NCBI RefSeq assembly: GCF_030408835.1
Contig: NZ_CP047357.1
Coordinates: forward strand, 2,728,001 to 2,792,000
DNA from: Corynebacterium freneyi
GTDB lineage: Bacteria > Actinomycetota > Actinomycetes > Mycobacteriales > Mycobacteriaceae
Length of the DNA: 64,000 bases
Direction of reading: 5' to 3'
Shown: positions 1,498 to 61,507 of the stretch, piece by piece
How the letters are laid out: every line of letters begins with the position of its first letter
Numbering within the stretch: position 1 is the first letter of the stretch
Notes under the pieces: generated by a model
What the model was told of the DNA's origin: nothing
Databases searched by the model: none
Seen by the model: only the letters and a program-made list of their open reading frames with translations
Position numbers and translations under genes: made by a program

Positions 1498-1565
1498 TTT
1501 TTGCTTGACGACAGCCACCCGAGAACCCACGCCACTCGGGTTTACGCCTCGTCGTAAAGCAAAAA
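1498..1565. repeat. Long inverted repeat with dispersed-word arms
   Basis: The 15-base left arm (1498-1512) and right arm (1551-1565) match at 14 of 15 positions when one is reverse-complemented. A second inverted repeat, ACCCGAG/CTCGGGT, lies inside. Each arm carries a copy of the dispersed word: GCTTGACGACA at 1503 (one base off) and the reverse of GCTTTACGACG at 1550-1560. The T-run is at the 5' end on both strands, so this is not an ordinary intrinsic terminator. Confidence 0.6.
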
Positions 1566-1683
1566 CCAGCTGAGAGACTTTCTCATCCGACTTTTATAAC
1601 GGCACGGCAACGATTAAGCTGTGCATGTTGTTATCGCGGCCGGAACCACCCGGTCGCTTCGTCGTCACCACGAAGGCAGCCCC

Positions 1684-2643: not shown

Positions 2644-3858
2644 TTACGCGTCGAGCAACCAGTCGTTGGGGCTGAACAGCTCGAAGTGGATGCGCGAACG
2701 GTCGACGCCACGCTCGGCGAGCTGTTCGCGGACGTGCTGCAGGAAGCCGTTGCCGCCGCAGATGTAGAACTCCGCATCCTCGGGCAGCTCGACTCCTCCC
2801 CCGGCGGACAGGTCCATGAACTCCGGTTCAATCCAGCGCCTCTCCGCGCCATTGGCCAACGCGGACACGGCGGCGGTGCGCTCGGCGGCGAGCACGTCGG
2901 CGGCCTCCGAACGGTCGGCGTGGACGGACAGCACCCGGCGCGGCGAATCGTTCGCGGCGAGGTAATTGAGCATGCCGACCATCGGGGTGGCGCCGATGCC
3001 GGCGGAGACCAGCACGACCGGGGCGTCGGACTCGGTGTCCAGCACGAGGTCGCCGGCGGGCAGCGAAATCTCGATGTCGTCGCCGACGCGGACGTCGTCG
3101 CACAGCTTGTTGGAGACCTCGCCGGCCGGCAGATTGGCCGCCTCGTCGGCGCGGACGCGGCGAACGGCGAACTTCAGCACGCCGTCGCCGGGGACACCGA
3201 CCAGGGAGTACTGGCGCAGCTGGCGCGCACCGTCGGACATGGTCTGGCGCACGGAGATGTACTGACCGGGAGTGAAGCCCGGAAGCTCGCCGTCCTTGCC
3301 ACGCACGCCGAACACGACGACGTCGTCGCTCAGGTCATCGCGCGAGACGACCTCCGCCGCACGGAAGACGTCACCGGGTTCAACGCCGGCTTCGTCGTAA
3401 AGCCCCTTTTCGAAGTTCACCAGCACCCTCTGCATTTCCAGGTACACCGCATCCCACGCATCGCGGACGGCGCCCTGGAACACCTCGGGCGTCAGAATCT
3501 CCTCGATCGCATCGAAAAGGTGCTTGTGCACGATCGGGTACTGCTCTTCGACGATGCCGACCGACAGGTGCTTGTGGCCGATGCGCGCCAGCAGCTCCTC
3601 GGGCGCCGGGGCCTCCGGGTCGACGAGCGTGGCGGCGAAGGTCGCGACGGAGGCGGCGAGCGCCTTCTGCTGCGCGCCCTGCTTCTGGTTGCCGCGGTTG
3701 AACGTGTCGGCCAGAAGCTCCGGGTGGGCGGCGAACATGCGGCGGTAGAAGTTCGGGGTGATGTCGCCGATGTTGGCGCCGACGACGGGCAGGGTCTGAC
3801 GGATGATGTCCGCCTGCTCGTCGGTGAGTCCGTTCTTGTTGACGTCGATGGTGGCCAT
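2644..3858 (-). CDS. hmp: Flavohaemoprotein (nitric oxide dioxygenase)
   Basis: A 404-residue cytoplasmic enzyme that oxidises NO to nitrate using O2 and NAD(P)H. The globin domain (about 1-137) has the distal Tyr in NFYRRMF (Tyr38) and the proximal His in GHKH (His95/97). The FAD domain shows RQYSLVG, and the NAD domain shows VLVSAGIGATPM and CGGNGF. Start: the ATG at 3858 has AGGGAG six bases upstream, while the longer frame adds 14 residues with no ribosome site. Length fits bacterial Hmp. The gene next upstream, on the same strand, encodes an NsrR-type NO sensor, and an inverted repeat lies about 50 bases before this start, so repression relieved by NO is likely. Confidence 0.93.
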   Translation of the reverse strand: MATIDVNKNGLTDEQADIIRQTLPVVGANIGDITPNFYRRMFAAHPELLADTFNRGNQKQGAQQKALAASVATFAATLVDPEAPAPEELLARIGHKHLSVGIVEEQYPIVHKHLFDAIEEILTPEVFQGAVRDAWDAVYLEMQRVLVNFEKGLYDEAGVEPGDVFRAAEVVSRDDLSDDVVVFGVRGKDGELPGFTPGQYISVRQTMSDGARQLRQYSLVGVPGDGVLKFAVRRVRADEAANLPAGEVSNKLCDDVRVGDDIEISLPAGDLVLDTESDAPVVLVSAGIGATPMVGMLNYLAANDSPRRVLSVHADRSEAADVLAAERTAAVSALANGAERRWIEPEFMDLSAGGGVELPEDAEFYICGGNGFLQHVREQLAERGVDRSRIHFELFSPNDWLLDA

Positions 3859-3934: not shown

Positions 3935-4043
3935 GCCGGAGCAGGGGTGTCCCCGAGGGGTTTCCCACCGAAAAACGGCAGGTCATTGCTTTGCGACGCC
4001 CACCCCAACCCCTTCGACCGCCCACCCCGGCGCGGCCGGGAAG

Positions 4044-7299: not shown

Positions 7300-8325
7300 T
7301 CATTTCCCGGTCTCCGCCCGCAGCGCCGCCGCGAGGTGCCGGGCCCGCCAACCGTCCGGGGGCGGTCGGGATTCGGCGCGCAACATGGCGGCGATGTCCC
7401 GGTCCCATGTGCGCCGAACCCTGGCCAGGTGCGCGGCCACCCATCCCGCGCGATCCCGGGCGATCCGCCTGCGTCTGCCGGCGATCACCAACGACGCCGC
7501 CAACGCGACACCCGCCACCGCCGTCACCGCGGCAACCGCCCACGCCGGCAGTCCCGCCCACTGCAGGAGCCCGCCGAGCATCCCGCCCGCGCCGAGCGCC
7601 GCGCCCAGCGTCAGCAGCCCCACCCCGACGTCCGTGAAGATCCCCGGCTTCGGCGGTTCCGGCGCCGTCGGCGTCTCCGGCGGCCCGGGCAGTCCCAGCG
7701 TCTCCGCGACGGTCACCGCCGCCCGCGCCACCGCCTCATCGACCTCCTCGGGCGACGTCGGCGGCGTACCGCGGCCGATCCCCTCCAGCGCGTCGGCGAT
7801 CGCGTGCGGCATGGTCGCCTTCCGCTCCCTCAGTTGCTTGTCGACGGCCCGCGCCCGCCCGGCGCGATCGGCGGACAATTGCGCCGCCAACAACGCCCGC
7901 CGACGTTGACCCGGCGTCGGGGTGATCGGCCGGGCGGGTCCCTCGGCGAGGAGTTTCAACGTTCTGGCCATGGTGGCGTCGAGGGGCCCGACGGCGACGT
8001 CGACGTGAATGGCGTCGCGCCACTGGTCGAGGCACCCCGCAGCCGGGCCCGCACCGGACCCCGCCCCCGCACGGCCATCGAGGTCCAGTCCGACGGCGCA
8101 ACGCCCGGTCGCCCCCGACACCGCCTCCACCAGGTCGACGTCGCCGCGATCCGGCGGCACCCGCCCGTCGACGAGGACGAGCACCACCGGGGTCCGCCCG
8201 TCGACGAGTCGCACGCCCGCCGCCTCCAACGCCGATGTGTCCGCCCATTCGGCCGCCGGGCCGGTCCGGGTCACCTCCAACGGCGGCGCATCCGTCCTCT
8301 CCCCGCCCGTCCCCGTCACGGCCAC
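7300..8325 (-). CDS. Uncharacterised protein with two C-terminal membrane segments
   Basis: A 341-residue protein I do not recognise. Residues 1-215 look soluble, with a beta-strand like VVLVLVDGRVP followed by an Arg/Lys-rich helical stretch (GQRRRALLAAQLSADRAGRARAVDKQLRERKA). Two hydrophobic segments lie at about 232-255 and 260-282, and the last 55 residues are basic and helical (RRTWDRDIAAML). This suggests a membrane-tethered cytoplasmic protein. Its start overlaps the end of the next gene upstream by ten bases, so the two are coupled. Position between pckG and trmB corresponds to Rv0209/Rv0210 in M. tuberculosis, but I cannot confirm homology. Confidence 0.6.
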   Translation of the reverse strand: MAVTGTGGERTDAPPLEVTRTGPAAEWADTSALEAAGVRLVDGRTPVVLVLVDGRVPPDRGDVDLVEAVSGATGRCAVGLDLDGRAGAGSGAGPAAGCLDQWRDAIHVDVAVGPLDATMARTLKLLAEGPARPITPTPGQRRRALLAAQLSADRAGRARAVDKQLRERKATMPHAIADALEGIGRGTPPTSPEEVDEAVARAAVTVAETLGLPGPPETPTAPEPPKPGIFTDVGVGLLTLGAALGAGGMLGGLLQWAGLPAWAVAAVTAVAGVALAASLVIAGRRRRIARDRAGWVAAHLARVRRTWDRDIAAMLRAESRPPPDGWRARHLAAALRAETGK

Positions 8326-8906
8326 AGCAGATCCTCCAGCTCGTCGCGCACCACCGGGTGCGCCACCGCTATCCGGGCCACGCCCCTTTCCAGCCGCCCC
8401 GACCGCACCTGCGCCAACACCGTCGGCGACGTCAGCTCCGCCACCGCGGCGATCACCTCCGACACGGCCGGACCACCGGGATCGGCGGCGTCGTCAAGCG
8501 AAATGCCCCGCCCCGCACGCCCCCGGGGATGGACGACCACCTCGCCCGGCCGCGCAACCGCCCCCGGATCGTGCGACAACGTCACCACCGCATCCGCGTC
8601 GACGCGCGGCGCGGCCCCCTCATCGGCGAGAATCCGCCACCGCCCCCGCGCCGTCGGATGCCGCCGCAACGACGCCGCAACCCCCTTCGCACCGATGCCC
8701 GCCGGCCCGCGCACCGCGATGACCGGTGGCCCCGACGCCGAATCGAGCAACTCCGCCATGTCCACCGCCGCGGCCTCGCCGACGCCGGCATCCGCCAACC
8801 AATCGACCACCGCCGCCCACAAACGACCGTCCCGCACCGACTCGCCCATCCCCGGTTCCCCCGAATCCGCCCGATCCCCCTGATCCGAACGCGCCCAGTA
8901 GACCAC
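8316..8906 (-). CDS. Uncharacterised protein, partner of the downstream membrane protein
   Basis: A 196-residue protein of unknown function. VIAVRGPAGIGAKGVAASL near residue 65 looks like a P-loop turn after a beta-strand but lacks the GK[ST] ending, so nucleotide binding is doubtful. Further strands (DADAVVTLSHDP, GEVVVHPRG) alternate with helices in an alpha/beta pattern like a GTPase core. The GTG at 8906 gives the longest frame; an ATG at 8849 (MGESVRDG) is an alternative with a purine-rich leader. Ten bases overlap the next gene. Divergent from trmB, with about 110 bases between. The strand carries one copy of the dispersed 11-base word, read here as SLDDA. Confidence 0.55.
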   Translation of the reverse strand: MVYWARSDQGDRADSGEPGMGESVRDGRLWAAVVDWLADAGVGEAAAVDMAELLDSASGPPVIAVRGPAGIGAKGVAASLRRHPTARGRWRILADEGAAPRVDADAVVTLSHDPGAVARPGEVVVHPRGRAGRGISLDDAADPGGPAVSEVIAAVAELTSPTVLAQVRSGRLERGVARIAVAHPVVRDELEDLLWP

Positions 8907-9017: not shown

Positions 9018-9890
9018 ATGGGAGCGATGACTAATACTGATACCCCTGATACGAACGACGCCGCCGGGGGAGGCGCGGATTCCGCGACCCCCGACACGGC
9101 GTCCGGCACCGGCCGCGTCCCCGACTTCGGCAAGGGCGCCCTGCCCTACGGCCGCCCCATGCAAACCGAATTCGACGACGGCCTCGACTACCCGCGCATC
9201 GGCGGCGTCAGCTTCCGCCGCGGCACCCTCACCCCCGGCCAGTCCGCCATCTGGGACGAACACTGGGACCGGGTCGGCACCGTGCTTTCCGACGACGTCA
9301 TCGACGTGGACGCCTGGTTCGGCCGCCCCGGCCCCACCATCGTCGAAATCGGCTGCGGCACCGGCACCTCCACCGTCGCCATGGCCCCGAAGGAAGCCGA
9401 CCACAACATCATCGCCGTCGAGCTGTACAAGCCCGGACTGGCGAAGCTGCTGTCCGCCATGACCCGCGAAGGCGTCGACAACATCCGCATGGTCCGCGGC
9501 GACGGCGTCGAAGTCCTCCAGCGCATGATCGCCCCCGAATCCCTCGACGGCGTCCGCCTGTTCTTCCCCGACCCGTGGCCCAAGGCCCGCCACCACAAGC
9601 GCCGCATCCTCCAAAGCGGCACCCTGCGGCTCATCGCCTCGCGCCTCAAGCCCGGCGGCATCTTCCACGCCGCCACCGACCACGCCGGCTACGCCGAATG
9701 GATCGACGAACTGCGCGACGTCGAACCCGCCCTCGAACCCATGCCGTGGCCGTGGCCCGAGTCGCCGATGCTGCTCGACCGACCCACCACCAAGTTCGAA
9801 AACCGCGGCCTCAACCTCGACCACGACATCCACGAATACGTCTGGCGCAAGCGCGACACCGCGGGCGCGACCCGAGAGGACGACCGATGA
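9018..9890 (+). CDS. trmB: tRNA (guanine-46-N7) methyltransferase
   Basis: A 290-residue enzyme that methylates G46 in the tRNA variable loop using S-adenosylmethionine. Motif I is [15 protein letters not shown] (about residue 111), and the family signature [19 protein letters not shown] lies near 178. A variable N-terminal extension of about 60 residues precedes the core, as in other actinobacteria. ATGs at 9018 and 9027 are both possible; neither has a well-spaced ribosome site, so the transcript may be leaderless. Its stop overlaps the start of the NYN-domain gene (ATGA), and the MmpL3-type exporter follows, the same order as Rv0208c-Rv0207c-Rv0206c. Confidence 0.93.
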
Positions 9891-10550: not shown

Positions 10551-13133
10551 ATGTTCTACCGATGGGGAGCCTTCGCGTACCGGCATCGCGTCATCACGCC
10601 GCTGGTGCTGGTCGCGGCCCTGCTCGCGTTGTTCTTCTTCTCCGGGACGAAGCTGGAGGACCGCCTCGACCAGGAAGGCTGGGACGACCCGGGGTCGGAT
10701 TCGACGGCCGCCGCGATGCTGGAGGAGGAGACGTTCGGCCGCGACAATTCCGGCGACGTCGTCGTCCTCGTCGACGCGCCCGACGGCGCCACCGTCGACG
10801 ACCCGGAGCTGACGCAGCGGGTCAACGACCACTTCGCGCGCCTGCAGGCGGAGAACCCGGAGTACATCGCCCACGTCACCAGCTACTTCGCCAACAACCA
10901 GGCGGTGATGGCCACCGAGGACAAGCAGACCGCGTTCGTCGCCATCGGCCTGACCGGCACCGGCAACGACGTGCTGAAGAACTACCGCGCCATCGAGGAC
11001 CAGCTGCCCATCGAGGGCGTGGACATGGAAATCGCCGGCGCGACGCCGGTGGCCGGCGCCCTGGATTCGGGCATGGCCGACGACATTTGGCGCGCCGAGC
11101 TGATCGGGCTGCCGATCGTCGCGCTGCTGCTGCTCATCGTCTTCGGCGGCGTGGTGTCGGCGTCGATGCCGCTGATCGTGGGCATCCTGTCCATCGCCGG
11201 TTCGCTGGGCATCCTGTCGATGCTGGCGTCGGTCACCCAGGTCAACGCCTTCGCGCAGTCCGTCGTCACGCTGCTGGGGCTGGGCCTGGCCATCGACTAC
11301 GGCCTGTTCATGGTGTCCCGGTTCCGGGAGGAGATGGCCGAGGGGGTGCCCGTCCCCCGGGCCGTGGCGAACACGACGGCGACGGCCGGCAAGACGGTCG
11401 TGTTCTCCGCCGCGATGGTCGCCGTGGCCCTGTCGGGACTGCTGCTGTTCCCGCAGGCCTTCCTGAAATCCGTGGCATACGGCGCGATGTCCGCGGTCGG
11501 TTTGGCCGCGCTGCTGTCGCTGACGGTGCTGCCGGCGCTGTTCGGCCTGCTGGGCCCCAACATCGACAGGTGGAGCGTCCGCCGCGCGGGCCGCACCCGC
11601 GAACAGTCGATGAACTCGGTGTGGGGCCGTATCCCCGCGTGGGCGATGAAGCACGCGACGGCGGTCACCATCGCGGTGTCCATCGGCCTGCTGGCCCTGA
11701 CGCTGCCGCTGATCGGCATCAAGTTCGGCGGCATCAACGAAACCTACCTGCCGCCTGCGAACGAAACCCGCACGGCGCAGGAACGCTTCGACGAGAACTT
11801 CCCGACGATGCGCACCGACCCGGTGAAGCTGGTCATCGAAGACGGCGGCAATCCGCGCGCCGTCGGCGAGATCTACCAGCGGGCCAACGAGGTCGCGGGG
11901 CTGACGGACCGGTTCAAGATCGCGCAGCCGACGAAGGACGGCGTGACGGTCCTGTCGGCCGGCATCGAGAACAGGGAGGACGGCACGCGCATCGTCGAGC
12001 AGCTGCGCGGCATCGACGTGCCCGACGGGGCGACGGTCTTCGTCGGCGGCACCCCGGCGATGGAGGTGGAGTCCATCGAGGCGCTGTTCGACACCCTGCC
12101 GTGGATGATCCTCTACATGGTCGTCGCCACGTTCATTCTCATGGCTCTGGTGTTCGGTTCGATCATCCTGCCGGCGAAGGCCGTGATCATGACTGCCCTG
12201 GGCCTCGGCGCGACGCTGGGCATTCTTACGGCGATGTTCGTCGACGGCGTCGGCGCGGGCCTGTTCGGCTTCACGCCGGGGCCGCTGATGAGCCCGGTGC
12301 TGGTGCTGATCATCGCGATCATCTACGGCCTGTCCACGGACTACGAGGTGTTCCTGGTGTCCCGGATGGTGGAGGACCGCGACGCCGGCGCCGCCACCCC
12401 GCACGCGATCCGCTTCGGCACGGCGAACACCGGCGGCATCATCACCGCGGCGGCGCTGATCATGATCGTCGTCGCCGGCGCGTTCGGGTTCTCCGACATC
12501 GTGATGATGAAGTACATCGCCTTCGGCATGATCGCCGCCCTGTTCCTCGACGCGACGATCATCCGTCTGCTGCTGGTCCCGGCGGTGATGAAGCTGCTCG
12601 GCGACGATTGCTGGTGGGCCCCGCGCTGGGTCAAGCGTTTGTCGGCGCACCTGGGGCACGGTTCGGCGGCGCCGGCTCCGGTGGCCCGCGTCCCGGCGAT
12701 GGCGGGCGCTCCCGCCGAGGCGCATGCCGACGGGCTTGACGACGGGCTTGCCGACGAGCATGCCGGGCGGTTCGACGAGGCCGGGCTCGCCCGAGGCGAC
12801 GCCCCCGCCGCCGCGTCCACGGCGCCCGCGGTGCCCGCCATGCCGGAGCGCACCGAAACCGGAGAGCCGATCTACGAGGGCGAACTCGTCGACGACGACC
12901 CCGCGGCCGGGTTCATCGGCCACGACCCGGACGACGACCTCGTCGCGCGCTACGCGGGCGACGGTGCCGCCGACGACGGCTACGGCGACGCGGTCCCCGA
13001 CGACGAACCCATCCAGGTGCCCGAGGGCCGCCTGACCGTGCGCGACATCATGTTGCGCCTGGAGTGGGAGAAGCGCGAGGCCCTGGGCCCCGGTTCCCCC
13101 GGCCCCGATTCCGGGACGGCTGATAACCGATGA
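10551..13133 (+). CDS. mmpL3: MmpL3/CmpL1-type trehalose monomycolate exporter (RND family)
   Basis: An 860-residue inner-membrane transporter of the RND superfamily with about 12 membrane segments. Two Asp-Tyr pairs that carry protons in MmpL3 are present: LGLAIDYGLFMVSRFREE (about residue 249) and IYGLSTDYEVFLVSRMVE (about 598). Two porter domains lie between membrane segments 1-2 and 7-8. The last 160 residues form a long acidic cytoplasmic tail ending in a conserved-looking helix (LTVRDIMLRLEWEKREAL). It moves trehalose monomycolate from the cytoplasm toward the periplasm. The C. glutamicum counterpart is CmpL1 (cg3174). Start ATG at 10551; the stop overlaps the next gene (ATGA), so the flippase-like protein is co-translated. 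Confidence 0.93.
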   Translation: MFYRWGAFAYRHRVITPLVLVAALLALFFFSGTKLEDRLDQEGWDDPGSDSTAAAMLEEETFGRDNSGDVVVLVDAPDGATVDDPELTQRVNDHFARLQAENPEYIAHVTSYFANNQAVMATEDKQTAFVAIGLTGTGNDVLKNYRAIEDQLPIEGVDMEIAGATPVAGALDSGMADDIWRAELIGLPIVALLLLIVFGGVVSASMPLIVGILSIAGSLGILSMLASVTQVNAFAQSVVTLLGLGLAIDYGLFMVSRFREEMAEGVPVPRAVANTTATAGKTVVFSAAMVAVALSGLLLFPQAFLKSVAYGAMSAVGLAALLSLTVLPALFGLLGPNIDRWSVRRAGRTREQSMNSVWGRIPAWAMKHATAVTIAVSIGLLALTLPLIGIKFGGINETYLPPANETRTAQERFDENFPTMRTDPVKLVIEDGGNPRAVGEIYQRANEVAGLTDRFKIAQPTKDGVTVLSAGIENREDGTRIVEQLRGIDVPDGATVFVGGTPAMEVESIEALFDTLPWMILYMVVATFILMALVFGSIILPAKAVIMTALGLGATLGILTAMFVDGVGAGLFGFTPGPLMSPVLVLIIAIIYGLSTDYEVFLVSRMVEDRDAGAATPHAIRFGTANTGGIITAAALIMIVVAGAFGFSDIVMMKYIAFGMIAALFLDATIIRLLLVPAVMKLLGDDCWWAPRWVKRLSAHLGHGSAAPAPVARVPAMAGAPAEAHADGLDDGLADEHAGRFDEAGLARGDAPAAASTAPAVPAMPERTETGEPIYEGELVDDDPAAGFIGHDPDDDLVARYAGDGAADDGYGDAVPDDEPIQVPEGRLTVRDIMLRLEWEKREALGPGSPGPDSGTADNR

Positions 13134-14832: not shown

Positions 14833-16434
<1,602 letters not shown>

Positions 16435-16487: not shown

Positions 16488-16532
16488 AAAGGGCCGGCCC
16501 GTCGCAGTTGCTTTGCGACGGGCCGGCCCTTT
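16488..16532. terminator. Bidirectional terminator with a dispersed word in its stem
   Basis: A perfect 19-base stem, 16488-16506 pairing with 16514-16532, around a seven-base loop. The right arm includes the end of GCTTTGCGACG (16510-16520); the left arm carries the complementary CGTCGCA. A-run on one side and T-run on the other make it usable on both strands, fitting the convergent genes around it. Confidence 0.85.
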
Positions 16533-16544
16533 CGTCGTCGACCG

Positions 16545-41907: not shown

Positions 41908-41931
41908 TTCAGTGCTTTTCGACGCCGGCGA

Positions 41932-45168: not shown

Positions 45169-45819
45169 TCAGGTCAGCGTCGTCAAGCCCTGCCAGACGA
45201 AGGAAACGCCCATCACGGCGAAAACGACGCCCGCCACCAGATCGATCCACGGTCCCGCCGACACCATGCGGCGCACCACCGGCTCCGTCGACACCGTGAC
45301 GGCGATCAGCCCGAACCACAGCACCGACGTGATCACCAGCGCCGCGATGTAGACCACCTGCACCCACCACGGCGCGCCGACCGGCATGAACTGCGACAGC
45401 ACCGCCGCGAAGAAAAGGACGATCTTCGGGTTGGACAGATTCGTCAGCAGTCCCTGTCGGTACGCCCCGCCGAGGCTGCCCAACGGCGCCACGCCGACCG
45501 CCGCCACGCCACCGGCCTGCACTTCGCGGATGCCGCGGACGCCCCCGACGAGCATCCGCACGCCCATGTACGCCAGGTACGCGCCACCGACCAGCTGGAT
45601 GCCGCCCATCAACGCCGGCTGCGACGCCAGCACCGCGGCCACGCCCACCACCGTCAGCGTCACCCACATCGTCGCCCCCGTGACGACGCCCGCCACCGCC
45701 GCCAACGCATGCTTGCGCGACCGCGTGGCCATCCGCAGGATCAGGAAAATGTCCGGCCCCGGCGACGTCATGCCCGCGACGTGGAGTCCCAGCATCGCCG
45801 TCAACGCAGCCCAGTTCAT
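45169..45819 (-). CDS. LysE/RhtB-family amino acid exporter
   Basis: A 216-residue membrane protein with about six segments. The N-terminal GMTSPGPDIFLILRMATRSRKHALAAVAGVVTG is the LysE/RhtB signature, and LTNLSNPKIVLFFAAVLSQF is the conserved middle. It exports amino acids or related small molecules; substrate unknown. I chose the ATG at 45819 because the signature begins directly after it; the longer frame upstream is low in complexity. A reverse dispersed word overlaps its last codons (45178-45188). Confidence 0.88.
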   Translation of the reverse strand: MNWAALTAMLGLHVAGMTSPGPDIFLILRMATRSRKHALAAVAGVVTGATMWVTLTVVGVAAVLASQPALMGGIQLVGGAYLAYMGVRMLVGGVRGIREVQAGGVAAVGVAPLGSLGGAYRQGLLTNLSNPKIVLFFAAVLSQFMPVGAPWWVQVVYIAALVITSVLWFGLIAVTVSTEPVVRRMVSAGPWIDLVAGVVFAVMGVSFVWQGLTTLT

Positions 45820-47067: not shown

Positions 47068-47150
47068 GCCGGTGCGGGGCGGGCCGGTCGTGCTTGACGA
47101 CGATCCGCGCGTGCCCCGGTCGGCCGATGGATCGCAGAAGAGGTGACACC

Positions 47151-49268: not shown

Positions 49269-50719
49269 TGATCGTCGAACCCCCCGTCACCAACGCCGGC
49301 CGCGGTGCCGCCCGCAGCGCCGGGAGCATCGTCGCGGCGGTGACGGCGGGCGAGGAGTCGGCGACCGAATTGGCGTCGCGGGCGGTCGACGCCCTGGTGG
49401 GCCGCCCGGAGGACACGGGCGTGGCCACGTTGACGTCGAATCTGGCGGAGGTAACGGCGGCTGCGGTGGACCGGCGGCTGCGCGACCCTTCCGCGCAGCG
49501 CGCGTCCGGGCCGGGTTCGCGTGACGACGCCCGCCGCCTGACCGGTCTGCCCGTCGCCGTCAAGGATCTGTACCCGATCAGCGGGGTGACCTGCACCCTC
49601 GGGTCGTCCCGGTTGGCGCGGACCGCGGAGCACACGGCGGATCCGGTGGTTCGCCTGCTGGCCCGCGGTGCGACGATTCCCGCCACGACGGCGACGTCGG
49701 AGATGGGTGCGACGGCCTACACCGAGCCGACGGACCTGCCCGCGCCGGACAATCCGCTGCGTCCCGGGCGCACGCCGGGCGGGTCGTCGGGTGGTTCCGC
49801 CGTGGCGGTGGCGTCGGGTGCGGTGGCGGCGGCGTTGGGATCCGACGGCGGCGGTTCCATTCGCGTTCCGGCGGCCTCGTGCGGGCTGGTGGGTTTGAAG
49901 CCGGCGCACGACATCCTCGGGGGGCGTTTGGCCACGGCCGGTTTTCTGACGCGTTCGCTTGACGACGCCGCCCTCCTGGCCAACCTGCCCTCCCCGTCGC
50001 AGTCGCCGACTCGCGACGACGCTGGACGGGTGGCCGGACCGCGCACCGGCCACCTGCGCATCGGGGTGACGGTGGCGCCGTTCCATGCCGAGGTCGCCGT
50101 GGCGCGGCATTGGCGCGATGCCGCGCTGGCCGCCGCGGACCGCCTGTCCGACGCCGGGCACGAGGTCGTGGAGGTCCCCGCGCCGTATCCGCCGGAGGGC
50201 CCGGATGTTTTCCATACGTTCACAGAGGTCATGACGTATTTCGCGTCGCGGTTGCCGGACGACGATTTCTCGTCGATGGTCCGGTGGATCCGCGAGCGCG
50301 GCTCGATCGTCTCCGATGACGTCGCCGCCGGACACCACCGCACGCGGTTGGGATTGGGCGCGGCGATCCGTAACCGATGGGACGTCGATGCGGTGGTCAC
50401 TCCGACGCTCGCGTTCGATCCGCCGCCGATCGGGCATTTCGCCGCGATGGAGCCGCAGGACAACTTCCTGGCGCAGACCGAGTGGACTCCGTGGCTGTCG
50501 CTGTGGAACCTCACCGGCTGGGCGGGGCTGTCGGTGCCCTTCGGCGGCTCCGGGGCGTCGGTTCACCTCGGGGCGGTGCACTGCGACGCGGCCACGCTGC
50601 TGCGTCTGGCCGCCGACCTGGTGGACCCGCTGGCCGATCTTCACTCCATCGAACGCGACCTGGCCGACCGACGCCGGGGGCTCTCCGGGCGCCGCCGGGA
50701 CAACGGCGTGGCGCGATGA
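49268..50719 (+). CDS. Amidase-signature-family hydrolase
   Basis: A 483-residue amidase-signature enzyme. The Ser-cisSer-Lys triad is visible: Lys in [12 protein letters not shown] (about residue 97) and the two Ser in [16 protein letters not shown] and [23 protein letters not shown]. The frame upstream of 49268 lacks a ribosome site. Amidase-family members hydrolyse varied amides; the GatA role is unlikely because no gatB/gatC lie nearby. The next gene starts within its stop (ATGA). A dispersed word lies inside at 49957-49967 (read as SLDDA). Confidence 0.88.
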
Positions 50720-52489: not shown

Positions 52490-53950
52490 TCAGGAGTGGT
52501 CGTCGATTGCGCCTCGAATCCGCTCCTGCAACGCCCTGCCCGCACGACGCACCGTCACCGCGGCCTTGGTCAACCCTTCGACGACCGGATGAACCGGATA
52601 CGCCACCTCGACCGTCGCGGCCTTCGCCACCCGGTTGCTCTCCACCGCCGCGTCCGAGATCCCCGGGCCGGGCTCGGCGACCGCGACGTCGTCAAGCGAA
52701 ACCACCGGCCACCGGCTGCCAGCCGCCACCACCGACCCATGCTTGACGGAGTAGTAGCCGTGCACGTGCACGTCCAGCGCCACACCCGACGCGCCGCGCG
52801 CCGCCGCAATGAGATGCGGATGAAAACGCGTGGTCAACCACCGCTGGCCCGGCCGCGCCGGCAGGCCCCGATCCCACAACTCCGCGAAACGCACCACGTG
52901 CGCCCCCTCGGCCAGATCCGGGGCACGATGCTCGATCCGGTGCCACACCCGCACATCGACGTGCGGAATCGCCTCGACCACCGCGATATCGCGACCGGAC
53001 ACCGGGCGCCCGTCGACCTCCCAACCGCGCAACACATCGATCACGGCGTCGGCGAGGGCGGCCGCGGAGTCCTCGGTGACAGGGGCCTCGGCCACGGAGT
53101 TATCGCCGGACTCGTGGGACTCACGGGACTCGTCGGTCCCGCCCTCGGCGTCACGGCCCGCGAGCAGATCACCCTGCAGGCACAACACGATCGGCCGCGC
53201 CCGGCCCGGCGTGCCCTCCCCCGCACCGAGGCCGTTGTCCTCCAGGTCGCCGGAGGCGAGCACCACCCACGCGTCATCGCCCGAGTACGTAATGCGGGTG
53301 GCGGCCCCCGAAGCCTCCGCACCATCACCGCCGACCGCGGCCCGCGCGATGGATTCCGACGCCTCGTCGCGCACGTCGATGAGGTCGAAGCGGGGCCAGA
53401 TGCGGTGCATCGACTCGTCGTAAAGCCCCGCCGGCGCCAACCCCATGCCCGTGGCCAGCAGCCGCACCGCGCCCCGACCCCCGCGGGCGGCCCGCGATTG
53501 CTCCGCGACGGCCGACGCCGCGGCGAGGACCACCGACTTGTCGGGCCAGATGTCGTTGACCCAGCCGCCGCCGAGGGCGTGAATCGTCGACGCCGAGCGC
53601 AGCAGACCCAGCCCGGCCTCCAGGTGCGGTGCGACGGTGCCGAGGACGCGATGGTCGACCGCCGCCTCCTCCGCCCGGCGCGCCGCATCCGCCCAATGCC
53701 GGTCGCCCTCCGGAATGCCGTGGCGGGCGGCCTCGGCCAGGCGGAACAGCGTGTCCGTCACGGTCAGCCGCGGGTGCAGCCCCGCATGCAGCACGCCGAC
53801 CATCCCCGGATCAGGGCAATCCAGCACGACGCGCGACCGCGGGCGACGCCGCGCCAGGGTGCGCAGCCAGGCCGCGGCGATGTACTCGTCGCCGAAATTC
53901 GGGTGGCCCGTCGGCGCAACGAGATAGATGACGTCATCGTGGGCGTGCAT
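52490..53950 (-). CDS. Polysaccharide pyruvyl transferase family protein
   Basis: A 486-residue soluble enzyme of the PS_pyruv_trans family (pfam04230, by recall). The N-terminal motif GHPNFGDEYIAAAWLRTL and the mid IHALGGGWVNDIWPD are family marks, as is TRFHPHLIAAARGASG with the catalytic His pair. Pyruvyl transferases move pyruvate from PEP onto sugars in wall or capsule polymers, as CsaB does for S-layer anchoring. Residues about 255-300 are an acidic insert. The gene is isolated, between an M23 peptidase and an FN3K-like gene. Exact acceptor unknown. Confidence 0.8.
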   Translation of the reverse strand: MHAHDDVIYLVAPTGHPNFGDEYIAAAWLRTLARRRPRSRVVLDCPDPGMVGVLHAGLHPRLTVTDTLFRLAEAARHGIPEGDRHWADAARRAEEAAVDHRVLGTVAPHLEAGLGLLRSASTIHALGGGWVNDIWPDKSVVLAAASAVAEQSRAARGGRGAVRLLATGMGLAPAGLYDESMHRIWPRFDLIDVRDEASESIARAAVGGDGAEASGAATRITYSGDDAWVVLASGDLEDNGLGAGEGTPGRARPIVLCLQGDLLAGRDAEGGTDESRESHESGDNSVAEAPVTEDSAAALADAVIDVLRGWEVDGRPVSGRDIAVVEAIPHVDVRVWHRIEHRAPDLAEGAHVVRFAELWDRGLPARPGQRWLTTRFHPHLIAAARGASGVALDVHVHGYYSVKHGSVVAAGSRWPVVSLDDVAVAEPGPGISDAAVESNRVAKAATVEVAYPVHPVVEGLTKAAVTVRRAGRALQERIRGAIDDHS

Positions 53951-54883: not shown

Positions 54884-56361
54884 TGGATGGAAGCGATCAG
54901 CCCCGCGACGACCGCGAGATCGTGCGCGGCCGCGACGGCAAGCCCCTGCGCGACAGGTACGGCCGTCCCATTTACCGGCGGTCGGCGCAGCCGCGCCGCG
55001 ATGCTTCCCCGGCCGATGACCGGCGGCAACGCTTCTCCGGGCGTCCGCGCACTCCCGAGGGATACCTGACCCGGGCCGACGTCGAGGAGCTGCGCCGCCT
55101 GCGCGAACGGGGCCTGCGCCCCGGCGAGGGCCGTCACGCCGAACCCCGCCGGCGCCCCGCCCCTTCCGATGCGCCGCCACGCCGTCCCCGCTCCTCCGAC
55201 ACCCGGGTGTTCCAGCGGCCCGACGATCTCCGCGGCGACCGCCCCCTCTACCGGGGCCAGGACGATCCCCGCTTCCCGCCCCGCGGCTACGACCCCGACC
55301 GCGGCTACTCCGACCACCCCGACCGGCCCCGCGGCGATCGCACGCGCCGGCTCGACGATTACGACGCCCGCGACGACGCAGCCCGAAGGCGTGGACGTGG
55401 ACGTCGCAAAGCACTGGACGACGGACGCCGACCCGACCGCCGCCCCCGCAACCGCAGGCCCCGCAACCTCGGCTTCACCATCAAATCGTTCCTGCTGGTG
55501 CTGCTCCTCGTCGCCGGCGCCGGCGCAATGTGGGTCGACTTCAACCTCAACCGCGTCGACGCATTCCCCGACGGAGACCGCCCCGGACGAACCATGGCCA
55601 GCAACTGGCTCATCGTCGGCTCCGACTCCCGCGACGGACTCACCGACGAAGACGCCGCCAACCTCGCCACCGGCGCCGGCGACTTCGGCCAACGCACCGA
55701 CACCATCATGATCGCCCACTTCCCCCTCGTCGGAAAGGGCCGCCTGGTGTCGCTGCCCCGCGACTCCTACGTCGACATCCCCGGGTACGGGCAAAACAAG
55801 ATCAACGCCGCCTACTCCTTCGGCGGCGCCCGACTCCTCGCCGAAACCATCGAGCACAACACCGGCATCCGCATCGACCACTACGCCGAAATCGGCTTCG
55901 GCGGATTCGCCTCCATCGTCGACGCCATGGGCGGCATCGAAATGTGCCCCACCGAGGCCATCCAAGACCCCCTCGCCGGCCTCGACATCGACGCCGGCTG
56001 CCAGAAATTCGACGGCGTCACCGGCCTCGGCTACGTCCGCACCCGCGCCACCGCCCAAGGCGACCTCGACCGCGTCGCCCGCCAGCGCGAATTCATGGGT
56101 GCGATGGTCGACCGCGTCTCCTCCCCCGCCGTGTGGCTCAACCCCTGGCGCTGGTACCGCCTCGGCTCCACGGGCGCCAAGGCCCTCACCGTCGACTCCG
56201 GCGACCACGTCTGGCACCTCGGATGGCTGATGCTGCGGATGGCGCTGGGCACCGAATCCGAGACCGTCCCCACCGCCGGGACCATGGACACCGGGCACGC
56301 CGGCAACGTCCTGCTGTGGGATGACGCGGCGGCCCCCGCCTTCTTCGACGAATTGAAGTAG
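54883..56361 (+). CDS. LytR-CpsA-Psr family wall-polymer ligase (LcpB-like)
   Basis: A 492-residue membrane protein. A 190-residue Arg/Pro/Asp-rich cytoplasmic tail precedes one membrane segment (about 196-218). The external LCP domain (about 240-400) has the pyrophosphate-binding Arg and Asp residues: TDTIMIAHFPLVGKGRLVSLPRDSYVDIPG, KINAAYSFGGARLLAETIEHNTGI and FGGFASIVDAMGGIEMC. LCP proteins in mycolate bacteria ligate arabinogalactan to peptidoglycan; C. glutamicum has LcpA (main) and LcpB (cg3210), and this gene fits the latter by neighbours. ATG at 54883; a TTG four codons earlier is less likely. Confidence 0.88.
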   Translation: MDGSDQPRDDREIVRGRDGKPLRDRYGRPIYRRSAQPRRDASPADDRRQRFSGRPRTPEGYLTRADVEELRRLRERGLRPGEGRHAEPRRRPAPSDAPPRRPRSSDTRVFQRPDDLRGDRPLYRGQDDPRFPPRGYDPDRGYSDHPDRPRGDRTRRLDDYDARDDAARRRGRGRRKALDDGRRPDRRPRNRRPRNLGFTIKSFLLVLLLVAGAGAMWVDFNLNRVDAFPDGDRPGRTMASNWLIVGSDSRDGLTDEDAANLATGAGDFGQRTDTIMIAHFPLVGKGRLVSLPRDSYVDIPGYGQNKINAAYSFGGARLLAETIEHNTGIRIDHYAEIGFGGFASIVDAMGGIEMCPTEAIQDPLAGLDIDAGCQKFDGVTGLGYVRTRATAQGDLDRVARQREFMGAMVDRVSSPAVWLNPWRWYRLGSTGAKALTVDSGDHVWHLGWLMLRMALGTESETVPTAGTMDTGHAGNVLLWDDAAAPAFFDELK

Positions 56362-57381: not shown

Positions 57382-58413
57382 TCAGTGGGAGGTTCCGGTC
57401 CCCGGCTTTGCGACGGTCCGCGTGACGTCCTCCGGCCGCAGGGAATCGCGGTCGAAGTCGACGGCGTCCTCGGGGCGCAGGCCGGTGTCGCGCTGGGCGA
57501 GCGGCACCTCCGGCGACGAGTCGTCCGCCCCGAAATCGCTGAGCGGGGTGCCCTGCGCTTCGGCGGTGGCGGTGTCCTGGGCGGCGATGAGGTCGGCGGC
57601 CCGGTGGGCGCGTTCCGCCCGGGCGGCGCGGGCCTCGCGTTCGCCCATGCCGGAGGTCATCGCGGCGGTGGTGGCGGCGTCGAAACCGCCGACGCGCGGC
57701 ATGGAATCCAGTGCCTTGCGGGCGCGGGCGGGCCAGTCGGTGGCCAGCCAGTCGATGCCCCGCGCCTTGGCGTAGGTGACGTCGACGTCGGTCTTGGCCA
57801 GCCAGCAGTACAGCGGCAGGTTCCACGACATCATGCCCATCGGGTCGCGGCGGGCGCCGTACATGTCCACGCCCATCGCGGTGGGGCCGCCGAGGTAGCG
57901 CTGCATGGCGGTGCGGGCGCCCGGGGCCTTCACCAGCTGGATGCGCTCCAGGTCCGGCAGCATCTCGCCGACGGCGTTGATGGACCGGGCGGCGAAGCTG
58001 ATGATCCTGGTCCGCGGGTCGCGGTCCAGGCCGAAGTGGCGGAGACGCTCCCGCAGCACGCGCTCGGTGCGCAGGCCGGTGGACACGGGGTGCTTGGTCT
58101 CGATGAACAGTCCGATCTCCGGGTTGGCGACGGCGAACTCGAGGAACGTGTCGAACTCCAGCACCGGCTGCGGCTTCTCCCACGTGCCGGCGTTGAGACG
58201 GCGGATCTGCTCCAGCGTCGTCGCGCCGACCGCGCCGGAACCGTCGGTGGTGCGGTTCAGGGTGCGGTCGTGCATGCAGATCAGGTGACCGTCGGCGGTG
58301 AGGCGGATGTCGCACTCGACGCCGTCGGCCCCTTCGGCGACGGCCGCCTCATAGGCGCCGATGGTGTGTTCGGGGTGGGCGCCGGAGGCTCCGCGGTGGG
58401 CGATGATCTCCAT
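57382..58413 (-). CDS. Glycerophosphodiester phosphodiesterase
   Basis: A 343-residue TIM-barrel phosphodiesterase that splits glycerophosphodiesters to glycerol-3-phosphate and alcohol. IIAHRGASGAHPEHTIGAY gives the catalytic His and metal Glu; VECDIRLTADGHLICMHDRTLNRTTDG adds Glu, Asp and His; IETKHPVSTG follows. No signal peptide, so it is cytoplasmic. A 60-residue charged tail trails the barrel and ends in TVAKPGTGTSH, which encodes a dispersed word (57405-57415) 23 bases from the stop. Its ATG overlaps the upstream stop. Confidence 0.92.
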   Translation of the reverse strand: MEIIAHRGASGAHPEHTIGAYEAAVAEGADGVECDIRLTADGHLICMHDRTLNRTTDGSGAVGATTLEQIRRLNAGTWEKPQPVLEFDTFLEFAVANPEIGLFIETKHPVSTGLRTERVLRERLRHFGLDRDPRTRIISFAARSINAVGEMLPDLERIQLVKAPGARTAMQRYLGGPTAMGVDMYGARRDPMGMMSWNLPLYCWLAKTDVDVTYAKARGIDWLATDWPARARKALDSMPRVGGFDAATTAAMTSGMGEREARAARAERAHRAADLIAAQDTATAEAQGTPLSDFGADDSSPEVPLAQRDTGLRPEDAVDFDRDSLRPEDVTRTVAKPGTGTSH

Positions 58414-59516
58414 CAGGGCTTCTCCTCGTGCACATCCCGGTACAGGGACGTGATCGCGTCGTCGATGGGCGGAGTGATGGTCTTCGGGGTGCGCGAACGT
58501 TGCGCGGTGATCAGGCCGCGCGACCAGAACGGCTCCGCCGCCGCGCGGGCCCGGGCCCGCCGCTCGGCGCGCTCGGCGGCCACCTCCGGGTCGACGTCTT
58601 CGTCGTCCGCGTCGGCGTCGTCGTCAAGCGCCGCGGCCAGCGCATCATCTGCGCCGGGCACCAGGCGCCGCGGATCCGGCGGGGCCAACGCCCGCGCCAA
58701 CGCCCCGACCGCCGCCGCCGACGCGATGGCCGCGATGGTGGCCAGCACGCCGCTGCGGAACACGTCCAGCGCCGTGGTGCTCAGAAACGCCGACACCAGC
58801 GTCAACGGCCACAACACGCAGGAGACGAACCACGCCCACTTGCCGGGCCCGCGCACGCCCGTCTCCGCGAGAATGACCACCGGGCCGGTGATGTTGCGCC
58901 CGGGCCACAGGTGCATGGCGGTGATGGTCTTCGGGCTGCGCGCCAGCGGCGGCCGCCACTGCCGCGCCCGCTCCGCCAACGCACGCAACGTCGCGATGCC
59001 GTACGCGCCGAGCACGCCGGCGGCCACGACGGCGGCGAAGTACAACAGCGACGACACCGGCCCGAGCAGCAGCGACGGCACCGCGCTGCCGGCCGGCGAC
59101 TGATAGCTGCCCCACGTGGCGAACGTCCCGAGACCGAACAGCCCGGCCGTTGCCACCGCCCACGCCCGGGCGGCCGCCGCACGACGGCGCGCGACCTCCT
59201 GCGGCTCGGGCTTCGGCGGCACCTGGTACGGGGTGAAGCCGCTCATCGGGATCGGCGCCGGCACGGGCCCCGGCACCGGACTGCGCGGGTGAATCGAACC
59301 GCTGATGGGTCGCGGCCCCTGCCCGTAGCCGCCCGGCACGTCGTGGTTGATGTGACCGGTCACGGACCCGCGGCCGAACGCAGGCGGCGGCGGAGGGGTG
59401 CGCGGCACGCCCCAATCGCCTGCCCATTCGCCGTTGCGGTGCAGACCCGGATTGCCCGGCCCCGGCGCTGCCGGGCCCCGCTGGTCCGGGCCCGGTCCCT
59501 TCACTGCGCCGGTCAT
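58413..59516 (-). CDS. Uncharacterised membrane protein with Pro/Gly-rich N-terminus
   Basis: A 367-residue protein I do not recognise by function. Residues 1-115 are Pro/Gly-rich and disordered. About four membrane segments follow in two hairpins (WAVATAGLFGLGTFATWG, SLLYFAAVVAAGVLGAYG, FVSCVLWPLTLVSAF and LATIAAIASAAAVGALA). The C-terminal 75 residues are acidic, then Arg-rich. Its stop overlaps the GDPD start, and its start overlaps the pyk-like stop, so pyk-this-GDPD form a coupled unit. A reverse dispersed word lies in the acidic tail. Confidence 0.72.
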   Translation of the reverse strand: MTGAVKGPGPDQRGPAAPGPGNPGLHRNGEWAGDWGVPRTPPPPPAFGRGSVTGHINHDVPGGYGQGPRPISGSIHPRSPVPGPVPAPIPMSGFTPYQVPPKPEPQEVARRRAAAARAWAVATAGLFGLGTFATWGSYQSPAGSAVPSLLLGPVSSLLYFAAVVAAGVLGAYGIATLRALAERARQWRPPLARSPKTITAMHLWPGRNITGPVVILAETGVRGPGKWAWFVSCVLWPLTLVSAFLSTTALDVFRSGVLATIAAIASAAAVGALARALAPPDPRRLVPGADDALAAALDDDADADDEDVDPEVAAERAERRARARAAAEPFWSRGLITAQRSRTPKTITPPIDDAITSLYRDVHEEKP

Positions 59517-61507
59517 CGCGTTTCACCGTCCCAGGAGCGGATGCGGCGCAGCATGATGCGGTTCTTGCGCTGCGAGCGGCCCATCTTCTTGGCCAAATCG
59601 TCCAGGATGACGATGGCTTCGGTGATGTGCGGGCCCTTGTTCAGCATGACGCACTCGGCGCGCAGCGCGAACGCGGCATCGGTGATTTCGGCGCGGGCGG
59701 GCAGGCCGGACTTGGCCAGCGATTCGAGGACCTGGGTGCCCAGGATGGTGGGCACGCGGGCGGCCTGCGCGAGCGCGAGGATCTGGCCGGGCACTTCGCC
59801 CATGCGCTGGAAGCCGAGTTCCACGGCGAGGTCGCCCCGGGCGATCATGATGCCCATGTTGGCGTGGCGCATGCCGGCGACGAGGATTTCGGGGAGGTTC
59901 TCGAAGGCCGGGATGGTCTCGATCTTCAGCACGATGCCCAGGTTGCGGGAGCGTTCGGCCAGCTCGGCGTTGCCCGCGGCCTCGTACTCGGCGGCGATGG
60001 TCTCCAGCTCCTCGAGGACGTGTGCGACGTCCTCGGGCGTGCGGATGAAGCTCACCGCCGCCACGTTGGCGTTTTCCGCTACGAAGCGCAGATTCTCGGC
60101 GTCTTCCTCGGTCAGCGCGGGCACCGGCAGGTCGGTGGTGGGCAGGTTGATGCCCTTGTGGCCGGCCAGGTTCTGGCCGCCCGGCTTGGCCCGGGTGACC
60201 TTCAGGCGGGCTTCGTGGTGCTTGACGACGTCCACGTCCCCGGCATCCGCCGACTCCACGTCGGCCGACCCATCGGCGGCGCCCACGGAGACGACCTCGG
60301 CGGCGATGGCGCCGTCGTCGAAAAGCACCGGCTGGCCGACCTGCAGCGCGGCGACGGCTTCGGGCAGGGTGCACGACAGGCGCGGCACCTCGCCGCTTTC
60401 CTGCCGCGGCACCGACTCGACGGTCTCGGAGGTGATGATCATCTCGTCGCCCACCTCGAACCGCAGCTTGCGGGTCACCGGCGGCACGCCCGTGGCGCGG
60501 GTCTTCTCGTAGTCGTGGCGCAGCAGGGTGCCGTCGGCGATGTAGGCGTTGCGGTTGCCCTCGGCGAGCACGCCGCCGTCCTCGACATGGGTGACGGTGA
60601 AATGGCGCTTGGCCGAGCGGTTGTCGTGCAGGGTGATTTCGCTGCCGACCTCCAGGTTCGCCAGCCATCCGGCGTCGACGGTCAGCGGCAGGGCCGGACG
60701 GCCGGGCAGACCGGCGGGCACCGGGGCGGGCAGCGACGCCACCGCGCCGTCGCGCGACTCGTCCGGGTCCTCCGGACCACCGGGACCGCCGAGGTCGACC
60801 ACGCGCGGCGTCAGCCACAGCTTCGCCGGGGTGAGCACCGTCCCCGCGTCATCACGGGTGGTTCGGGCGCGACCGACCTTCGGGCCATCGGCGACGGCGC
60901 CGGTGCGGATCTTCGGGCCCGCCAAATCCATGGACACCTCGATGTCCCGGCCGACCTTCTGCGCGGCGTCGTTGACGTTGGCGATCATCTTCCGCCACGC
61001 CTCCGGGCCGTCGTGCGCGCAGTTGATGCGGGCGACGTCCATCCCGGCCTCGGCGAAACCGACCACCAGCTCGGCGTCGTCCGCGGCCTCCGACGGCAGG
61101 GTCACCATGATCCGGGCCGGCACGCCCTCGCGCTCGATGCCGAACAGGCGATCCGAGTTGGCGTCGAGCGCGACGTCGGCGGCGTCGTCGCGCGCGATGA
61201 TCGCGTCGACGTCGGTGTCCAGCTCCTCGCCGATCAGCGCCCGCAGCACCGCGCGCGCGATGACCAGGCGCCCGTACACGCCGGACTCGGCGGTGGTCAG
61301 GCTGGTCACGCCGAGGTCGTGCAACCCGTTCTGCAGCTCCCGGATGTCGATGGTGCGCAGGTGCGCGTACTGCAGCAGGTTCTCGGCGCCGGCGCGGTGC
61401 TCCGGGTGCACGCCCGCCAACGTGTCCGCCGCGTCGGCGCTGACGCGGTCGAGCTGCCCGATCAGATCGTCGAGCTGCTCGATCAAGGGCCGGACATCGT
61501 GATGCAT
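59513..61507 (-). CDS. Pyruvate kinase-like protein, divergent, Pyk2-like
   Basis: A 664-residue protein with an N-terminal extension of about 145 residues (helical, RLDRVSADAADTL) before the pyruvate kinase barrel. Kept motifs: MDLAGPKIRTG (DxxGPKIR), VLKIETIPAF with Lys and Glu, IMIARGDLAVEL with Asp and TQVLESLAKSGLPARAEITDAA with Thr. The usual NFSHG is NCAHD, so the potassium-site Ser is Ala. The regulatory C-terminal domain is missing. Start ATG at 61507 with GGAGGAG upstream; the long frame upstream is not needed. Position matches C. glutamicum pyk2 (cg3218), next to ldh. Confidence 0.85.
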   Translation of the reverse strand: MHHDVRPLIEQLDDLIGQLDRVSADAADTLAGVHPEHRAGAENLLQYAHLRTIDIRELQNGLHDLGVTSLTTAESGVYGRLVIARAVLRALIGEELDTDVDAIIARDDAADVALDANSDRLFGIEREGVPARIMVTLPSEAADDAELVVGFAEAGMDVARINCAHDGPEAWRKMIANVNDAAQKVGRDIEVSMDLAGPKIRTGAVADGPKVGRARTTRDDAGTVLTPAKLWLTPRVVDLGGPGGPEDPDESRDGAVASLPAPVPAGLPGRPALPLTVDAGWLANLEVGSEITLHDNRSAKRHFTVTHVEDGGVLAEGNRNAYIADGTLLRHDYEKTRATGVPPVTRKLRFEVGDEMIITSETVESVPRQESGEVPRLSCTLPEAVAALQVGQPVLFDDGAIAAEVVSVGAADGSADVESADAGDVDVVKHHEARLKVTRAKPGGQNLAGHKGINLPTTDLPVPALTEEDAENLRFVAENANVAAVSFIRTPEDVAHVLEELETIAAEYEAAGNAELAERSRNLGIVLKIETIPAFENLPEILVAGMRHANMGIMIARGDLAVELGFQRMGEVPGQILALAQAARVPTILGTQVLESLAKSGLPARAEITDAAFALRAECVMLNKGPHITEAIVILDDLAKKMGRSQRKNRIMLRRIRSWDGETR

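Follow-up and report, generated by a model that had tools for sequence, protein, structure and literature searches.

To our knowledge, self-recognition uptake tags have so far been known only from two families of Proteobacteria. In the excerpts of the literature cited here and below, the DNA uptake sequences (DUS) of the Neisseriaceae are described as frequent inside genes in permissive regions, with intergenic regions being particularly permissive, and as forming inverted pairs linked to terminators, and eight dialects are reported (PMC3630211); N. meningitidis 8013 carries 1,474 DUS and 682 copies with one mismatch, and the DUS receptor is the minor pilin ComP (PMC3868556). The uptake signal sequences (USS) of the Pasteurellaceae come in the versions AAGTGCGGT and ACAAGCGGT, found in different clades (PMC3630211), and their specific binding and uptake have been measured (PMC12616744). 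Here we describe a word, GCTTNNCGAYG, that is dispersed through a stretch of 64,000 nucleotides from Corynebacterium freneyi (contig NZ_CP047357.1, positions 2,728,001 to 2,792,000; this whole stretch is called the window) and far beyond it, and that is DUS- and USS-like in most of its sequence features: the number of copies, their balance between the strands, their spread and their excess between genes, the facing pairs, the constraint on the core, and the dialects. Judged by these features it quite probably serves Corynebacterium as a DNA uptake signal in the manner of DUS and USS, and on the best reading it would be a third, independently evolved signal of this kind and, as far as we know, the first in Actinobacteria.

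The word resembles the DUS in being short and non-palindromic, in its roughly one to two thousand copies, in occupying both intergenic and permissive in-gene sites, and in its inverted pairs and dialects (PMC3630211). It is unlike the DUS in its unrelated sequence, its two free central bases, its actinobacterial host, and the Tad pilus genes that Corynebacterium possesses where the DUS bearers have type IV pilus machinery including ComP; a terminator association was not confirmed for it, and it is known here from sequence alone. With the USS, for which ComN is the predicted receptor, it shares the character of a short dispersed word in two clade-specific versions and a similar copy number, but sequence and phylum are unrelated: GCTTNNCGAYG is unlike the DUS core and unlike both USS versions, and its sequence places it in neither family. 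The Tad/Flp-dependent transformation of Micrococcus luteus, an organism without a mycomembrane, belongs to the same phylum and likewise goes with Tad genes, ComEA, ComEC and DprA. The tad genes are required for transformation there, and the authors expect the same in other Actinobacteria (PMC4322843, cited from an excerpt); the phrase 'uptake sequence' is absent from that paper. Among the matches listed in a search of open-access full texts, a body of literature without subscription papers and preprints, nothing relevant was found on an uptake sequence in Corynebacterium or other Actinobacteria.

GCTTKRCGACG, the form in which the word was originally predicted from the letters of the window, occurs there 25 times, 13 times forward and 12 times reverse, each copy where it had been placed. 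In 100 dinucleotide shuffles, which supply the random expectation for the window counts, the mean is 0.30 and the maximum 3; the count is indeed far above chance, although the expectation had been put too low, at about 0.1 copies. The middle two bases are less restricted than K and R, and GCTTNNCGACG is found 43 times in the window (1.25 by shuffle, maximum 5). Nor are the copies restricted to the window: the chromosome of its own genome (G000; G-numbers are handles for genomes and L-numbers for stretches of genomes), a single contig of 2.88 Mb and 70% GC with dnaA at base 1, carries 1720 copies of GCTTNNCGACG, 861 forward and 859 reverse, against 119 (67 + 52) of a reversed-pattern control. 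When gapped words were counted with no preset word, GCTTnnCGACG ranked first in 400 kb of G000 and in nine of ten other word-bearing genomes (40 kb each), the single exception being G020, which was sampled in two word-poor stretches. In a sample of G000 made up of twenty 20-kb stretches and the window (464 kb, 309 copies), the central bases are themselves constrained, with A at position +4 in only 2 of the 309 copies and GA, TA and TG together accounting for 171. Of the 103 intergenic copies, 64 have a T directly before the word and 66 a C at +12, which gives an extended consensus of T-GCTT-KA-CGACG-N-C-C. Near-matches are in excess as well (GCTCNNCGACG, 105 against 24.9 expected). The copies in the window, and one inverted pair that they form, are listed here against a second set of gene calls, which was also used for the sample; a spot check of that set gave a family match for 6 of 8 proteins.

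1550..1560, minus strand: GCTTTACGACG, between genes
3393..3403, minus strand: GCTTTACGACG, in gene 2644-3858
3988..3998, plus strand: GCTTTGCGACG, between genes
7836..7846, plus strand: GCTTGTCGACG, in gene 7300-8325
8489..8499, minus strand: GCTTGACGACG, in gene 8316-8849
9284..9294, plus strand: GCTTTCCGACG, in gene 9018-9890
12734..12744, plus strand: GCTTGACGACG, in mmpL3-like gene 10551-13133
12746..12756, plus strand: GCTTGCCGACG, in mmpL3-like gene 10551-13133
13702..13712, minus strand: GCTTTGCGACG, in gene 13130-14299
15795..15805, minus strand: GCTTTTCGACG, in gene 14833-16434
16510..16520, plus strand: GCTTTGCGACG, between genes
19941..19951, minus strand: GCTTGACGACG, in pks13 (18958-23925)
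20058..20068, plus strand: GCTTTGCGACG, in pks13 (18958-23925)
20205..20215, minus strand: GCTTCGCGACG, in pks13 (18958-23925)
23586..23596, minus strand: GCTTCGCGACG, in pks13 (18958-23925)
24168..24178, plus strand: GCTTCTCGACG, in fadD32-like gene 23959-25794
24636..24646, minus strand: GCTTAACGACG, in fadD32-like gene 23959-25794
26039..26049, plus strand: GCTTGACGACG, between genes; present in sister G164 with differing NN
26633..26643, plus strand: GCTTCACGACG, in gene 26275-27195; inverted pair with 26646..26656
26646..26656, minus strand: GCTTGCCGACG, in gene 26275-27195; inverted pair with 26633..26643
28576..28586, minus strand: GCTTTCCGACG, in gene 27761-29788
28855..28865, plus strand: GCTTGTCGACG, in gene 27761-29788
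29600..29610, plus strand: GCTTGACGACG, in gene 27761-29788
31635..31645, plus strand: GCTTGACGACG, between genes; present in sister G164 with differing NN
36398..36408, minus strand: GCTTGACGACG, in gene 35862-37865
37887..37897, plus strand: GCTTTACGACG, left arm of an inverted pair between convergent genes
37918..37928, minus strand: GCTTTACGACG, right arm of the inverted pair 37887-37928
37887..37928, no strand: the inverted pair itself, hairpin-capable, folding energy -37.2, then TCCTTTTC
41914..41924, plus strand: GCTTTTCGACG, between genes
43089..43099, minus strand: GCTTCACGACG, in gene 42838-43761
44264..44274, plus strand: GCTTCGCGACG, in serS (43765-45042)
45096..45106, plus strand: GCTTTGCGACG, between genes
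45178..45188, minus strand: GCTTGACGACG, near the end of gene 45169-45819; inverted relative to 45096
47092..47102, plus strand: GCTTGACGACG, between genes
49957..49967, plus strand: GCTTGACGACG, between genes
52687..52697, minus strand: GCTTGACGACG, in gene 52490-53950
53416..53426, minus strand: GCTTTACGACG, in gene 52490-53950
55402..55412, minus strand: GCTTTGCGACG, in gene 54883-56361
57405..57415, plus strand: GCTTTGCGACG, in gene 57382-58413
58619..58629, minus strand: GCTTGACGACG, in gene 58413-59516
60220..60230, plus strand: GCTTGACGACG, in gene 59513-61507
60316..60326, minus strand: GCTTTTCGACG, in gene 59513-61507
62340..62350, plus strand: GCTTCACGACG, in gene 61717-62493
62911..62921, minus strand: GCTTCACGACG, in gene 62570-63538

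The word prefers the spaces between genes. The 464-kb sample holds 205 copies in genes (0.516 per kb), 103 intergenic copies (1.544 per kb) and one that straddles a boundary, which bears out the predicted intergenic excess; the nine copies once assigned to gaps become ten of the 25 (11 of the 43 copies of GCTTNNCGACG) by the second gene calls. Intergenic regions of at least 15 bases between two called genes contain 95 copies, compared with 1.1 under a first-order Markov model (maximum 4 in 40), and the density is 2.29 per kb in convergent, 1.50 in tandem and 1.43 in divergent gaps. The spread along the chromosome is even: both orientations are present in each 20-kb stretch, the twenty stretches carry 9–18 copies each (mean 13.3, variance 6.0), and the distances between copies vary less than at random (coefficient of variation 0.83 as opposed to 0.96; 2 of 500 simulations were as even). 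Where neighbouring copies are no more than 60 bases apart, 13 of 17 pairs face each other (GCTT..CGACG followed by CGTCG..AAGC; p = 1e-5). Four of these 13 occupy convergent gaps and three tandem gaps, four fall within genes and two are at stretch edges. The counts of spacing, pair orientation and polarity are independent of gene calls. The hairpins enclosed by three of the facing pairs (L046, L048, L049) are very strong (folding energy -52 to -57), and the pair at 37887-37928 lies between a plus-strand gene ending at 37865 and a minus-strand gene ending at 38001.

Comparison with relatives indicates which parts of the word are held. In G164, a sister species with 85% identity across the aligned window, all seven aligned intergenic copies are intact: the nine fixed bases match at 63 of 63 positions and the flanks at 265 of 372, while the two free bases were kept at 7 of 14 positions and changed at the other 7. 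In genes, 16 of 27 copies are intact in this species (fixed bases 224/243, free bases 46/54, flanks 1270/1592). G175 is similar, with three of four intergenic copies intact (fixed 35/36, flanks 134/210) and 16 of 26 in genes (fixed 217/234, flanks 1230/1539). In the word-less relative G039, none of 19 aligned sites is intact and the fixed bases are kept no better than the flanks, and in word-less G163 none of 11 is intact. Because 32 of the 34 window sites in the G164 alignment are free of gaps and the differences are substitutions, copies arise and vanish by point mutation rather than by insertion. Stretches L255-L257 of G039 are 75% GC and lack the word throughout 60 kb, which makes this genome a good comparison for a missing factor.

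Related genomes carry the word widely and in more than one form. The genus survey covered 201 genomes (G000 and 200 drawn, none dropped, three of them less than 80% complete), and word classes were assigned by eye from two count tables and then recounted. GCTTNNCGACG is present in 280–1964 copies in 140 genomes and in at most 134 copies in the other 61, with none between. A second form, GCTTNNCGATG, reaches 625–1184 copies in ten of these 61; in the other 51 it does not exceed 213, and these were counted as word-less. The word, in one of two clade-separated forms, is thus found in 150 of 201 Corynebacterium genomes. GCTTNNCGATG is the top one-base variant in G006, G053 and G144 (26, 11 and 14 copies in 40 kb), and the leading central bases also differ between genomes, being GA/TG in G164 and G175, GA/TA/TG in G000, AT and GT in G016, G180 and G089, and GC in 12 of 15 CGATG copies of G053. 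In a tree built from up to nine non-Tad proteins encoded beside the Tad locus in 22 genomes, which were chosen rather than drawn, the five CGATG genomes form one clade with word-less G014 (support 1.000), and the word-less genomes are scattered, with at least five changes between presence and absence required; because several inner nodes have little support, the tree does not give the direction of these changes. In 229 genomes from 30 further genera of the same family, and in 295 rows for the class that partly overlap with them, GCTTNNCGAYG reaches at most about 2.7 times its reversed control, as against 13.5 times in G000. Among the 80 loci listed in a scan by TadA alignment, which came from all over the bacteria, one Corynebacterium isolate had 18 copies in 21 kb and a C. 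urealyticum fragment had none in 7 kb.

Some genomes deserve separate mention. G143, counted among the 140, is bilingual, with 1337 CGATG and 352 CGACG copies (its relative G006 has 1021 and 97), and may bear the trace of a switch of dialect or of exchange between the two. G129, G132, G062 and G041, classed as word-less, have 108–134 copies, some two to four times the reversed control, that are possibly decaying relics. Scans of 18–98 kb in 18 of the 51 word-less genomes gave no dominant dispersed word that might serve as a further dialect, although such scans could miss a rarer or looser one. TCATCGATG is about elevenfold enriched in G014 (18 copies against 1.6 in 98 kb; L063, L064, L142, L229, L230), with no wider motif in its flanks, and TTTTTCACAC and overlapping words occur six times in 40 kb of the 70% GC genome G147 (L073, L074) as a local AT-rich repeat.

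Several other origins for such a word have to be considered. The main rival holds that a nucleoid or chromosome-structuring protein peculiar to the lineage binds the word at some 1700 evenly spread sites, which selection maintains and which decay once the protein is lost, and the even spacing, the strong constraint on nine bases and the clade-wise presence and absence would fit this too. However, parS, KOPS, matS and Noc sites show an origin-to-terminus gradient or polarity, whereas the sampled G000 stretches show no such gradient of the word and, taking dnaA as the origin and the chromosome midpoint as the terminus, 166 copies run along the fork and 143 against it, a difference without significance (p = 0.21). 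At least five presence/absence changes among 22 genomes, together with a change in a recognised base, would also be unusual for a housekeeping organiser, and permissive placement and inverted pairs are known from the DUS (PMC3630211). The rival is weakened by this, and we regard it as unlikely. KOPS and Chi are likewise short, dispersed and over-represented words, but they are polarised along replichores and the Corynebacterium word is not; polar sites of this type are rejected, in agreement with the predicted equal use of strands (861/859) and lack of KOPS- or Chi-type polarity. A related proposal, that the word is an intracellular recombination hotspot, a non-polar analogue of Chi that spreads by biased gene conversion and plays no role in uptake, would accommodate the drive-like constraint and the spread by substitution. 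It seems improbable, as Chi-type sites are polar and both the facing pairs and the dialects are DUS-like.

A bipartite word with a two-base gap might suggest recognition by a DNA methylase or restriction system, yet restriction targets are usually avoided, typical type I targets have gaps longer than two bases, and the word stands about 14-fold above its reversed control, leaving this origin very unlikely. A short mobile or insertional repeat would explain a high copy number and inverted pairs; the copies, however, have only 11 to 14 bases in common, with no longer conserved unit, 205 of 309 lie in genes, and those in the G164 alignment differ by substitution at sites nearly all free of gaps. 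We therefore reject a REP-like or insertional repeat, which retains hardly any probability. Much the same can be said of base composition or codon bias as the source: in-gene copies do favour one frame (116 sense and 58 antisense of the 205), but shuffling synonymous codons among genes yields only 30.0 ± 4.2 of these copies (maximum 39 in 100), the highest density is intergenic, and the reversed control is far below the word itself. This explanation, too, is rejected as practically negligible, and the original statement that codon use could not account for the copies holds.

If the word is an uptake signal, uptake machinery is required. The Tad locus of G000, at about 209.7-214.9 kb, encodes Ssd-like, TadA, TadB, TadC, a DUF4244 pilin, a TadE-like protein (a weak match of 41.9 bits) and a PF13400 Tad protein, and the same genome has ComEA at 816.8 kb, DprA at 1272 kb, a prepilin peptidase at 1472 kb and ComEC. 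The competence genes that the original prediction had proposed to look for are thus present, yet they do not explain where the word occurs. ComEC was found in 201 of 201 Corynebacterium genomes, the prepilin peptidase in 199 (both misses, G058 and G138, are word-bearing), DprA in 80 of 80 (29 with the word and 51 without), and ComEA in 28 of 28, above the cut-off in 25 and below it in word-bearing G043 and word-less G039 and G084. A TadA-type ATPase is present in 60 of 60 genomes with scores whose order nearly follows word class: E values of 5.3e-47 or lower were reached by all 32 word-bearing picks (20 CGACG and 12 CGATG, including the weak G073) and by 5 of 28 word-less ones. The T2SSF (TadB/TadC) scores show a similar tendency, to which each class has its exceptions. 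Compared with neighbouring genes, Tad showed no clear extra divergence in word-less genomes (on earlier gene calls, partial for G000, G039, G163 and G164), and we therefore take the score trend as shared ancestry. All seven Tad components were matched in 22 loci, the TadE-like match in G010 being very weak (9.5 bits); in word-less G010, G147, G128 and G066 (L144, L145, L146, L147) one gene stands in place of tadB and tadC. Competence and Tad genes as the cause of the presence or absence of the word are rejected, as they occur in word-less species as well.

How an uptake signal might operate in Corynebacterium can be outlined as follows. On free DNA the word would be bound by a surface component of the Tad (Flp) competence pilus; by analogy, the most likely receptor candidates are small Tad pseudopilins, either the TadE-like or the PF13400 Tad/Rv3654c-like protein. 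As the pilus retracts, tagged DNA would cross the mycomembrane and the wall and reach ComEA; one strand would enter through ComEC, to be recombined by DprA and RecA. If fragments with the tag enter and recombine at a higher rate, a mutated word would tend to be restored and the word would spread by point mutation into permissive places, a form of molecular drive. A change in the receptor might give rise to a new dialect (CGACG to CGATG), and loss of specificity or of transformation to a word-less genome. The sequences themselves show the enrichment, its regular and non-polar distribution, the conservation of nine bases, the dialects, the scattered word-less genomes and the machinery genes; we infer that the word is bound and favoured in uptake, which protein is its receptor, and that drive is what maintains it.

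Several observations weigh against an uptake role. None of ComEC, DprA, the prepilin peptidase, ComEA and Tad separates word-bearing from word-less genomes, so machinery that uptake requires does not discriminate between them. In word-bearing G043 the best ComEA-type helix-hairpin-helix match (G043:C1:1129426-1129593) is below the cut-off and has an internal stop. As the dialect switch happened once in the tree, it is not attributable to any residue. No report of natural transformation in Corynebacterium was among the matches listed in the open-access literature, which does not extend to subscription papers or preprints. The original prediction had also placed the inverted pairs in terminators: the pairs are real, but a simple scan for terminators, run around 37887-37928 and the pairs in L046, L048 and L049 (four of the 13 that face each other), flagged none, the scanner having a loop limit of 8 bases, so that 37887-37928 itself could not qualify. 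Lastly, L096 of G004, with housekeeping-type genes (2 copies against 7.5 expected), and L098 of G197 (2 against 6.1) are poor in the word, as are two stretches of G020 that carry mobile DNA.

Those two stretches of G020 (L089:7793-19957 and L090:7061-19975) have one and three copies where the mean of their genome would give 12.8 in each. They encode a phage-type integrase, an MmeI-like restriction-modification gene, a DDE transposase and a Mu-type transposase, along with insertion sequence (IS) genes, a metal-transport-type ATPase and some ordinary genes. A depletion of the word in mobile DNA, resting on two stretches of one genome, is only suggestive; in Neisseria, mobile elements have been recognised by an atypical distribution of DUS (PMC7371117, cited from an excerpt). 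The word might be usable for mapping foreign islands in the genus. A search for corynephages yielded 248 records, none of them of Corynebacterium. In the window itself, 10551-25794 is a mycolic-acid gene neighbourhood with mmpL3-like, carboxyltransferase-like, pks13 and fadD32-like genes, several with in-gene copies; the Pks13 match scores 2347.6 bits, and FadD32 scores 916 bits against the NCBI FadD32_Coryne model (cut-off 875), which marks the DNA as that of a Corynebacterium.

Taken as an uptake signal, the word is DUS- and USS-like, as originally predicted, in its genome-wide excess, lack of polarity, intergenic excess, facing pairs and dialects. The fuller reading, which we consider likely, is of an independent code for the uptake of self DNA, read by a receptor of the Tad pilus in at least two dialects with clade-specific central bases, used by about three quarters of the sampled genomes and absent from several lineages; it would act as both a barrier to and a channel for gene exchange among them. 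No earlier code of this kind would be known from outside Proteobacteria, nor from any bacterium with a mycolic-acid outer membrane. If this fuller reading is true, a third, unrelated case in another phylum would mean that such codes evolve repeatedly, and a Tad-pilus protein would be indicated as a new kind of DNA receptor. It would also provide well over a hundred genomes in which natural presence, absence and a dialect switch can be compared, and a practical tag for genetic work on harmless species. It would predict which corynebacteria transform naturally, and with what DNA.

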